Shown: positions 28,313 to 43,500 of the stretch, piece after piece
Position numbering within the stretch: position 1 is the stretch's first letter
Layout: each line of letters starts with the position of its first letter
Origin: Sulfurisphaera javensis
GTDB lineage: Archaea; Thermoproteota; Thermoprotei_A; Sulfolobales; Sulfolobaceae
DNA length: 64,000 bases
Assembly: GCF_041154675.1 (NCBI RefSeq)
Contig: NZ_AP031322.1
Span: 992,001 to 1,056,000 of the forward strand
Direction: 5' to 3'
Made by a program: the position numbers and the translations under genes
Notes under the pieces: model-generated
What the model saw: the letters and a program-made list of their open reading frames with translations, nothing else
Database searches by the model: none
What the model was told of the DNA's origin: nothing

Positions 28313-28497
28313 ATCTTGAGTATTTTGAAATATAAGGTATAAAACTATTAGCCAAAATAGACTGTTTATCGTTTCAATTAAAATTACGGATCAATTATAT
28401 TTTCATCTTAAAAATAAGCGATAAAGTTATTAAAATCCTAGCCGATTTTGCTATTATAATCATCAATATTACTATAAACTATTTACATCTTAGTTTT

Positions 28498-28672
28498 GCT
28501 GACTTCCTCTTAGCCCTGAAGGCTAGGGTTCCCCTTATCAATTCGGGTTTACATCTTTCATATGAGATGCAGTCGAGAGGCTCAGAGAACCCCTCTTCTC
28601 AGACTATATTTTTTATTTATTTTTGCGAGCATTCATCCCTGCCTAAAGGCTTTCTGCCCTCAACTTTGTTAG
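28498..28672 (+). repeat. 175-base structured repeat, copy 1
   Basis: Shares blocks with 43328-43500 in the same orientation and almost the same length (175 against 173). Shared blocks are GAAGG.TA.GGTTCCCC near the left end, CTCAGA.AACC in the middle, and GCCTAAAGGCTTTCTGCCC near the right end, then TTGTTAG. Stems visible in copy 1: AGCC/GGCT near 28512-28523, GAGAGG/CCTCTT near 28575-28596, and GCC/GGC at 28641-28650. It could be a solo end or miniature derivative of an IS200/IS605-type element, or a structured RNA such as an omega RNA remnant. The rest of this 465-base gap (28313-28777) shows only promoter-like AT-rich sequence. Confidence 0.7.
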
Positions 28673-42364: not shown

Positions 42365-42937
42365 TTATTTAATTAACGGTTCTATATAACGTGTAAGCAA
42401 ATAGTTTACCCCTTCAACTATAATTACACCAGTTAAAACGGGATGAAGAATAAAAAGAGGTGAAACTTTTTCTAATACTGCCAAGAAAGAAGCTAAAATT
42501 GATGGTGGATGTTCAATATTTATGAGAACTTCAATGATAAAAGAGACGAAAGCTGAGATCATAGCCATTAATAAACCTGTAAGAGAAAGTAAAACAAATA
42601 AAACTCCTATCACAGAGGATATAAGGTACGAAATCATGATCGGAAAACTACGATATTCTCTCCAATCTGGATCTGGGTATTTAGTGGCAGCAGTAGCTAA
42701 AAACGGTGGAAGAATATATTCAGTGTGAGTTAATACTGTTACTATGAAAAGAAGGGAAATTGAAATAATCAAATTAAGTATAGCGATAGTTTTCTTTTTT
42801 CTTGACGGGAACATACATCTTTCACACTCCGAATTTATGTAATAAAATTTCGAATTTTTCTTTTTATTCCTTATCCAATTATCATATAAAACTATAAGTA
42901 ATAAAGATAACCACATACGCAAAGTCTTACTTCTCAT
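42365..42937 (-). CDS. HPP-family integral membrane protein
   Basis: 190 residues from the ATG at 42937, which overlaps the upstream stop as ATGA; a later ATG at 42814 would give 149 residues. ILPPFLATAATKYPDPDWREYRS (positions read from the middle third) and HPPSILAS are the family blocks, and four helices follow. HPP proteins of plants transport nitrite; archaeal roles are unknown. Followed by no gene in the same direction. Confidence 0.65.
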   Translation of the reverse strand: MRSKTLRMWLSLLLIVLYDNWIRNKKKNSKFYYINSECERCMFPSRKKKTIAILNLIISISLLFIVTVLTHTEYILPPFLATAATKYPDPDWREYRSFPIMISYLISSVIGVLFVLLSLTGLLMAMISAFVSFIIEVLINIEHPPSILASFLAVLEKVSPLFILHPVLTGVIIVEGVNYLLTRYIEPLIK

Positions 42938-43338
42938 CTTACCTTCTTTGATTTCGTGAGAGTAAAATATGTAAAGTAACTTATTACTCCGTAAAATATA
43001 TGAGCCATTACATAGCTTAAAGTTATTTTTATTGGAAATATGAGCAGGTGAATGGGTAAGCTAAATAGTGATAATACAGCAGAACCAAGCAAAAGACCCA
43101 AAATAAATGCTGAAAGATAATTACAACTTCTTATCTTCACACTCTCTAGTATTTTTACGGCAACAAGAAATACTACCATTGACGCTATCAAATGGAGTAA
43201 AATTCCTAAGAAGATTGAACTTATGTGAAGAATATGAAAGGAGATTGTTGAAAATACGTCGAAGTCGTTAACAAAGAATACCAATTCAGCAATACCGCCT
43301 ATTAGACCAGATAAAACTGCTTTCATAACTGACTCCAT
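42934..43338 (-). CDS. Small membrane protein upstream of the HPP gene
   Basis: 134 residues from the ATG at 43338 (another ATG lies at 43326). Four helices with His residues in helix two (FHILHISSIFL, LLHLIAS). The frame stays open through the structured repeat upstream, but that part is low-quality coding and is excluded. Coupled by ATGA overlap to the HPP gene. Confidence 0.5.
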   Translation of the reverse strand: MESVMKAVLSGLIGGIAELVFFVNDFDVFSTISFHILHISSIFLGILLHLIASMVVFLVAVKILESVKIRSCNYLSAFILGLLLGSAVLSLFSLPIHLLIFPIKITLSYVMAHIFYGVISYFTYFTLTKSKKVR

Positions 43339-43500
43339 CTCCACCTTGAAGGATAAGGGTTCCCCCTCGTCTGAGGAACAGTTAAGAGACTCAGAAAACC
43401 TTTCCCGTCTTAACTTCAAACTACATTTTTCTTTATTTAACAGTACTATTTTTTTTCGTGTCATCCCCGCCTAAAGGCTTTCTGCCCATACTATTGTTAG
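43328..43500 (+). repeat. 173-base structured repeat, copy 2
   Basis: Same orientation and blocks as 28498-28672. The middle stem is GTTAAGA (43381-43387) pairing with TCTTAAC (43408-43414), where copy 1 has a different but again complementary pair. GCCTAAAGGC near 43469-43478 is identical in both. It overlaps the first four codons of the minus-strand gene and probably supplies its upstream region. Confidence 0.7.

Follow-up and report, generated by a model that had tools for sequence, protein, structure and literature searches.

Identity of the two repeats

What are the two repeats of about 170 bp that lie in a 64,000-nt stretch of the Sulfurisphaera javensis genome, and how did they get there? 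In this study we analyzed that stretch as a whole (the window, positions 992001-1056000 of a single contig of 2,569,661 bp). The initial annotation had described the repeats as related, and a whole-length local alignment agrees: it scored 48.5, against a maximum of 18 in 1000 dinucleotide shuffles. After refinement of the ends copy 1 covers 28499-28667 (169 bp) and copy 2 covers 43329-43495 (167 bp). Both lie on the minus strand, each adjoins a TAAC tetranucleotide, and their G+C contents of 43% and 41% exceed that of the window (31%). Read on the minus strand, the layout is a target TTAC (TAAC at the window copies), a left-end hairpin, an omega-RNA scaffold and a right end terminating in GTCAG. 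We consider it very probable that both repeats are internally deleted, non-autonomous elements of the IS200/IS605 type (PATE/MITE class) that derive from tnpB-bearing parents, have kept the left end (LE), the right end (RE) and the omega-RNA scaffold, were mobilized in trans and are by now fossils.

The ends of copy 1 follow from a genome-wide family with the consensus TTAC/...GTCAG/ (slashes mark the joints) and from the empty-site joint of a full-length relative. Its target- or TAM-like TAAC (28668-28671, consensus TTAC in the left flanks of 12 local elements and 15 elements of relatives) stands directly 5' of the left end, where an inverted repeat GCC-TTTA-GGC (GGGCAGAAAGCCTTTAGGCAGGGATGAATGCTC, 28627-28659) is of the kind common to left ends upstream of tnpB genes. 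The 3' scaffold of an omega-RNA (28499-28603) was recognized with 84.2 bits (E 3.4e-26) by a covariance model whose training set was restricted to tnpB-linked elements from other species. It comprises stem A (GAGGGGTTC-TCT-GAGCCTCTC, 28575-28595), which is intact according to the scaffold model, covariation and folding; a stem B region (28531-28570, CCCCTC...GAGGGG in the family), in which the scaffold model places two broken pairs out of six; and the right-end hairpin CCCTAGCCTTCAGGGCTAAGAGG (28506-28528), backed by covariation and the scaffold model. If an omega-RNA were transcribed, the 20 nt 3' of the element (28479-28498, minus strand) would be its guide according to the known omega-RNA layout (PMC10640517).

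Copy 2, delimited by the family alignment and the scaffold model, has the same parts in a more worn state. The left-flank comparison gives its target-like TAAC at 43496-43499, and alignment with family left ends gives the left end (GGGCAGAAAGCCTTTAGGCGGGGATGACAC) at 43458-43487. The scaffold (43329-43412) reaches 37.5 bits (E 1.5e-10) in the hold-out model and bears a 22-nt deletion in the stem B loop. In a stem comparison of the local copies, stem A (43384-43404) has one broken pair and several wobbles, and stem B (43363-43378) reads TTCCTC-AGAC-GAGGGG; the right-end hairpin region (CCTTATCCTTCAAGGTGGAGATGG) falls at 43335-43358 in the scaffold model. Two bp behind the right end is the ATG of a 130-aa open reading frame on the minus strand (42934-43326), the host gene, for which we found no Pfam match at E 0.01. 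An ATG within copy 2, at 43464, opens a frame that runs through the element and continues in frame into this gene (43464-42934, minus strand, 176 aa). The fusion may supply a new N-terminus or be fortuitous. The statement that the repeats encode no protein holds for copy 1; copy 2 has this open frame. At curated Rfam thresholds the whole window gave a single match, a tRNA.

Family members and insertion sites in S. javensis

The copies are not merely a pair. A DNA search of the genome with copy 1 returned 27 matches, the weakest of them at chance level, and a covariance-model search, as had been proposed, returned 11. About six elements are tnpB-less and about 170 bp long (the window copies and those at 157.5, 923, 1251 and 2363 kb), and shorter LE/RE fusions of roughly 45-60 bp lie at 299, 913 and 1136 kb. 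On the minus strand the copies run from a TTAC-like target through the left end (consensus GTGGGCAGAAAGCCTTTAGGCGGGGATGAATGCCCACA), a variable middle and GGGAGGGGTTCTCTGAGCCTCTCGACTGCCCCTCA..GATGTAA..CGAATCGATGAGGGGAACC to the right-end hairpin and GAAGTCAG. Longer copies carry tnpB between the same two ends (LE-tnpB-omegaRNA-RE), locally at 183, 858 and 948 kb and many times in relatives. In these parents the scaffold overlaps the stop codon and covers the last ~20-30 codons of tnpB. A search for tnpB at the other copies, another of the proposed checks, was therefore rewarded, and the suspected miniature IS200/IS605 end turned out to be a minus-strand element with both ends present and tnpB deleted. 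The omega-RNA-like transcript that had been suggested also fits, as the copies appear by sequence to retain the scaffold of a tnpB-bearing element of this type on the minus strand.

The exact ends come from the 183-kb element, a 1,279-bp tnpB-bearing relative nested in a tnpB of the IS607 type, of which a second, uninterrupted copy is found at 741 kb. When the joined flanks were aligned to this copy, the best joint was TTAC/AAAAATTAGGG...GAAGTCAG/TAAAC; any shift scores lower, and not a single target base is duplicated. TTAC precedes eight of the 12 local left ends, the others being TAAC (both copies in the window and the one at 2363 kb) and TATC (157 kb); it also precedes most of the 15 elements from relatives. 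Hairpins are subterminal at both ends, and there are no terminal inverted repeats. In each of the three congeners the genes that flank copy 1 are also neighbors, with an intergenic region that is ~370 bp shorter and has no such element; congener orthologues of the 130-aa gene behind copy 2 lack it too. A clean-ended empty allele was not found for either copy among the three congeners, whose flanks are too diverged.

Some family members carry features of their own. The first ~35 codons of the family tnpB form a long imperfect palindrome (GGCTCCAGAGC..GAGGAGGAAATC...GATTTCCTCCTCGGCTCTGGAGCC; L010 about 600-720, L020 about 2740-2850), and a copy at 22.7 kb consists of only the left end and this tnpB-start palindrome, within an MFS-type gene. 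The tnpB remnants at 858,121-858,221 and 948,825-948,925 have the same right end and the same flank (TAGCAACACCAACTCCCCAA), a pattern that a segmental duplication or gene conversion would leave. Between ~157.6 and 158.5 kb, flanked by two damaged element copies, there are several short TGATGA...CTGA units with long G+C-rich terminal stems and TTTAAATAC boxes in front; together they resemble clustered C/D-box sRNA genes.

Conservation of the RNA scaffold

The initial annotation had seen a compensated stem, GAGAGG/CCTCTT in one copy and GTTAAGA/TCTTAAC in the other, and had read it as a sign of selection on structure. These stems fall in non-homologous alignment columns, and the compensation as described was not confirmed. 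Folding of the single copies showed no extra stability over shuffles either, as RNA (z -1.5 for copy 1, +0.6 for copy 2) or as DNA (-0.85 and 0). As an argument for an omega-RNA or IS200/IS605 reading the two-copy comparison is weak, and it is the family-wide evidence that carries this reading. The hold-out covariance model, built from 14 tnpB-linked scaffolds of other genomes, found exactly two matches in the 64-kb window at E up to 10, namely the two scaffolds described above, and it scored the tnpB-bearing parents at 183 and 948 kb with 123 and 103 bits.

At the level of the family, covariation of the stems is strong. In a set of 29 scaffolds, seven of them from the S. javensis genome, 92.9% of the cells in the three stems are paired. 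Two-sided changes occur at 12 of 19 pairs (5.5 in shuffles) and in 41 cells (11.8 in shuffles), and pairing falls to 55-62% when the partner is slid by one column; the shuffled controls leave relatedness in place, and the slid controls keep it too. Stem B alone occurs as CCCCTC/GAGGGG, CTGGGC/GCCCGG and TCCAGC/GCTGGA. A hand tally of one-sided stem changes in the six local copies without tnpB, with copy 2 realigned by hand, gave 12 that kept the pair and 16 that broke it. Hence there is no sign of selection on the stems of the local copies, which look like products of neutral decay.

The same tally bears on the possibility that the copies have been domesticated, as regulatory RNAs or leader elements, and are maintained for their position before membrane-protein genes. 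Both copies do lie near the starts of probable membrane-protein genes, and copy 2 with its in-frame open frame stops just short of an ATG. However, changes that break pairs are about as frequent as those that keep them, other copies sit in unrelated settings such as the inside of an MFS-type gene or of an IS607-type tnpB, and no congener has an element at the site of copy 1. We therefore regard a regulatory or leader function as very unlikely.

Probable mobilization and decay

S. javensis seems to lack working enzymes for this family. All the genes for a matching TnpB that we found in the genome are shifted, stopped or deleted: the 183-kb copy has a frame shift near its start, the 948-kb copy a TAA, the 858-kb copy an internal deletion and the 158.7-kb copy many lesions. 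A search of database contigs with the TnpB protein found relatives at 53-60% only. A TnpB-like protein of 277 aa at ~620 kb (620,336-620,509, minus strand; L012:1474-2307) is open and has the zinc/RuvC end PF07282 (63 bits); it is distant from the family of the window elements. The gene adjoins a histone-deacetylase-like gene, and its product is possibly a domesticated TnpB. We detected no Y1 TnpA in the S. javensis genome, whereas one is present in each of the three congeners and in ten further relatives. Because no TnpA is detectable and no TnpB of the family is intact, the S. javensis copies are probably fossils that were once mobilized in trans.

Which enzyme could have moved them? A link to Y1 elements within the same genome was considered and dropped, as none are present there. 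In relatives, the Y1-bearing elements end in GCCCTTTAGGGCGGGGAGGAGGTCAG with a nearly identical right-end hairpin, and their left-end hairpin, AAGCCTCGCC..GGCGGGG, is similar too. Owing to this similarity of the ends, it is likely that a TnpA of this kind mobilized the copies in trans. The left flank of these Y1 elements is TGAC and not TTAC, and hence their TnpA is a presumed rather than an observed mover of the TTAC elements. In the history that we propose, the subterminal hairpins, in single-stranded DNA, would have been recognized by a Y1 (HUH) TnpA from another IS200/IS605 element. After excision this enzyme would have inserted the mini-element 3' of TTAC, leaving the target unduplicated. 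The minus-strand omega-RNA would carry ~20 nt past GTCAG as a guide, and together with a TnpB supplied in trans it could cut the vacated TTAC site, which would favor re-copying of the element. The length of the guide and the use of TnpB by these elements are what we infer by analogy with characterized TnpBs.

It might be asked whether the copies are active now, with the omega-RNA transcribed and used by a TnpB in trans to protect the site of the element. Copy 1, with stem A preserved and a scaffold score of 84 bits, would be suited to this, and the 277-aa protein is open. However, that protein is far from the family, the family's own TnpB genes are all damaged where found, no tnpA was found in the genome and copy 2 has lost much of its scaffold, which leaves present activity highly improbable. 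A chance resemblance, or an origin as inverted-repeat MITEs from some unrelated DDE transposon, to which the small size and the hairpins at both ends might point, has next to no probability and is ruled out by the hold-out covariance search and the empty-site joint, given also a similarity far above shuffles, ends that are the same in kind as those of tnpB-bearing elements, the lack of terminal inverted repeats and the absence of target duplication at the tested joint.

Comparison with known systems

As fossils of a known transposon class the copies by themselves are ordinary. What the comparison yields for a TnpB family of the Sulfolobaceae is a set of exact ends, a target and an omega-RNA model with covarying stems. 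Guide-RNA-bearing PATEs have reportedly been noted in work on Geobacillus TnpB in 2023. Protein-less derivatives of IS605-type elements are known as PATEs from Haloquadratum walsbyi, for example the core-deleted ISHwa23 (PMC3119063). Like the S. javensis elements they carry subterminal palindromes, are bounded by a target oligonucleotide that is not duplicated and have lost tnpB by internal deletion, and they include very short forms (52 bp in Haloquadratum, roughly 45-60 bp in S. javensis). They differ in that the core retained in S. javensis is an omega-RNA scaffold with measured covariation, and in the phylum of the host; the PATE paper (PMC3119063) is older than omega-RNA biology. In Sulfolobus islandicus REY15A, a member of the same host family, SisTnpB1 and solo-tnpB elements likewise have the omega-RNA at the 3' end of tnpB, the guide beyond the right end and a TAM equal to the left-end motif (PMC10640517). 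Those elements keep tnpB and use the TAMs TTTAA/TTTAT (PMC10640517); the S. javensis family has the motif TTAC, and the window copies lack tnpB. The sotRNAs/omega-RNAs of haloarchaeal IS200/IS605 elements (RF02656, RF02657), sense transcripts that span the tnpB 3' end (PMC12558985), are similar in this position, but the lone match was to sot0042, from one relative, and at 20 bits it is not significant.

HgcC as a probable relative of the scaffold

HgcC (RF00062) has been an orphan RNA of hyperthermophiles for two decades. Our comparison suggests that it corresponds to the omega-RNA/right end of IS200/IS605-type elements such as these, and we think this is likely. RF00062 matches tnpB-linked scaffolds, and most of its matches overlap the 3' end of a tnpB. 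The relatives' tnpB-linked scaffolds scored 26-42 bits against RF00062 (maximum 41.6, E down to 1.6e-6), with a gathering threshold of 50. In S. javensis copy 1 reached 13.7 bits, copy 2 gave nothing and the best match in the genome had 25.9 bits, all below 50. Among 398 genomes of the phylum, 67 had a match at E 1e-4 and one exceeded the threshold. TnpB beside the matches was judged by tblastn, a strict zinc-motif scan being too narrow. At 19 of 30 loci the strand of the match also carries a TnpB coding sequence, in most cases immediately upstream or extending into the match; at one locus (L184) it lies on the downstream side. Four loci (L161, L165, L169 and L187) have only about the last 24-31 TnpB residues left, as in the window copies. 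HgcC shares with the family the right-end hairpin, the GGAGGAGGTCAG end and the 5' stem, although family scores stay below the gathering score of 50. In the transcriptome of T. kodakarensis, HgcC1-3 lie inside 'transposase' genes and HgcC4-5 outside (PMC4247193). A literature search of openly readable papers found none tying HgcC to TnpB; such a paper may still exist.

Protein-less elements in Sulfodiicoccus

Although the copies in S. javensis look decayed, it might be possible that protein-less elements of the family are guide-RNA-only transposons, whose omega-RNAs (HgcC among them) redirect a TnpB encoded elsewhere to their own vacated sites; the S. javensis copies would then be decayed remnants. 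We offer this as a tentative idea, with doubt outweighing belief. The family is wide-spread: matches of the scaffold model R1, whose training included members of several of the searched genomes, occur in 29 of 31 Sulfolobaceae genomes, with 58 in one of them (G007) and 107 in Sulfodiicoccus acidiphilus HS-1 (G010). If the idea were true, up to about a hundred loci would provide about a hundred natural TnpB guides per Sulfodiicoccus acidiphilus cell. As a cultured host this strain allows a direct test of TnpB use in trans.

We inspected 20 Sulfodiicoccus loci, a non-random choice of mostly 128-130-nt scaffolds, of which 19 are tnpB-less, with about 320 bp from TTAC to GTCAG, and one is tnpB-linked. 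The 19 tnpB-less elements have a TATA-like TATTTATACTT and unique right flanks. One-sided stem changes among them kept the pair 47 times and broke it 20 times, a count that leans to pairing as the structure was predicted. Their ~110-nt insert occurs in 25 of the 31 family genomes, some matches spanning the scaffold part only. The view that it is a purely structured RNA domain was weakened by a small reading frame inside (SSIEGLMGLWEEQ...), for which we found no Pfam or NCBIfam match. This small conserved frame occurs in tnpB-less elements of Sulfolobaceae and in a distant archaeon, and distant relatives have it open too. It has a TAA stop in about half of the 19 sampled Sulfodiicoccus copies, and its differences are mildly skewed by codon position.
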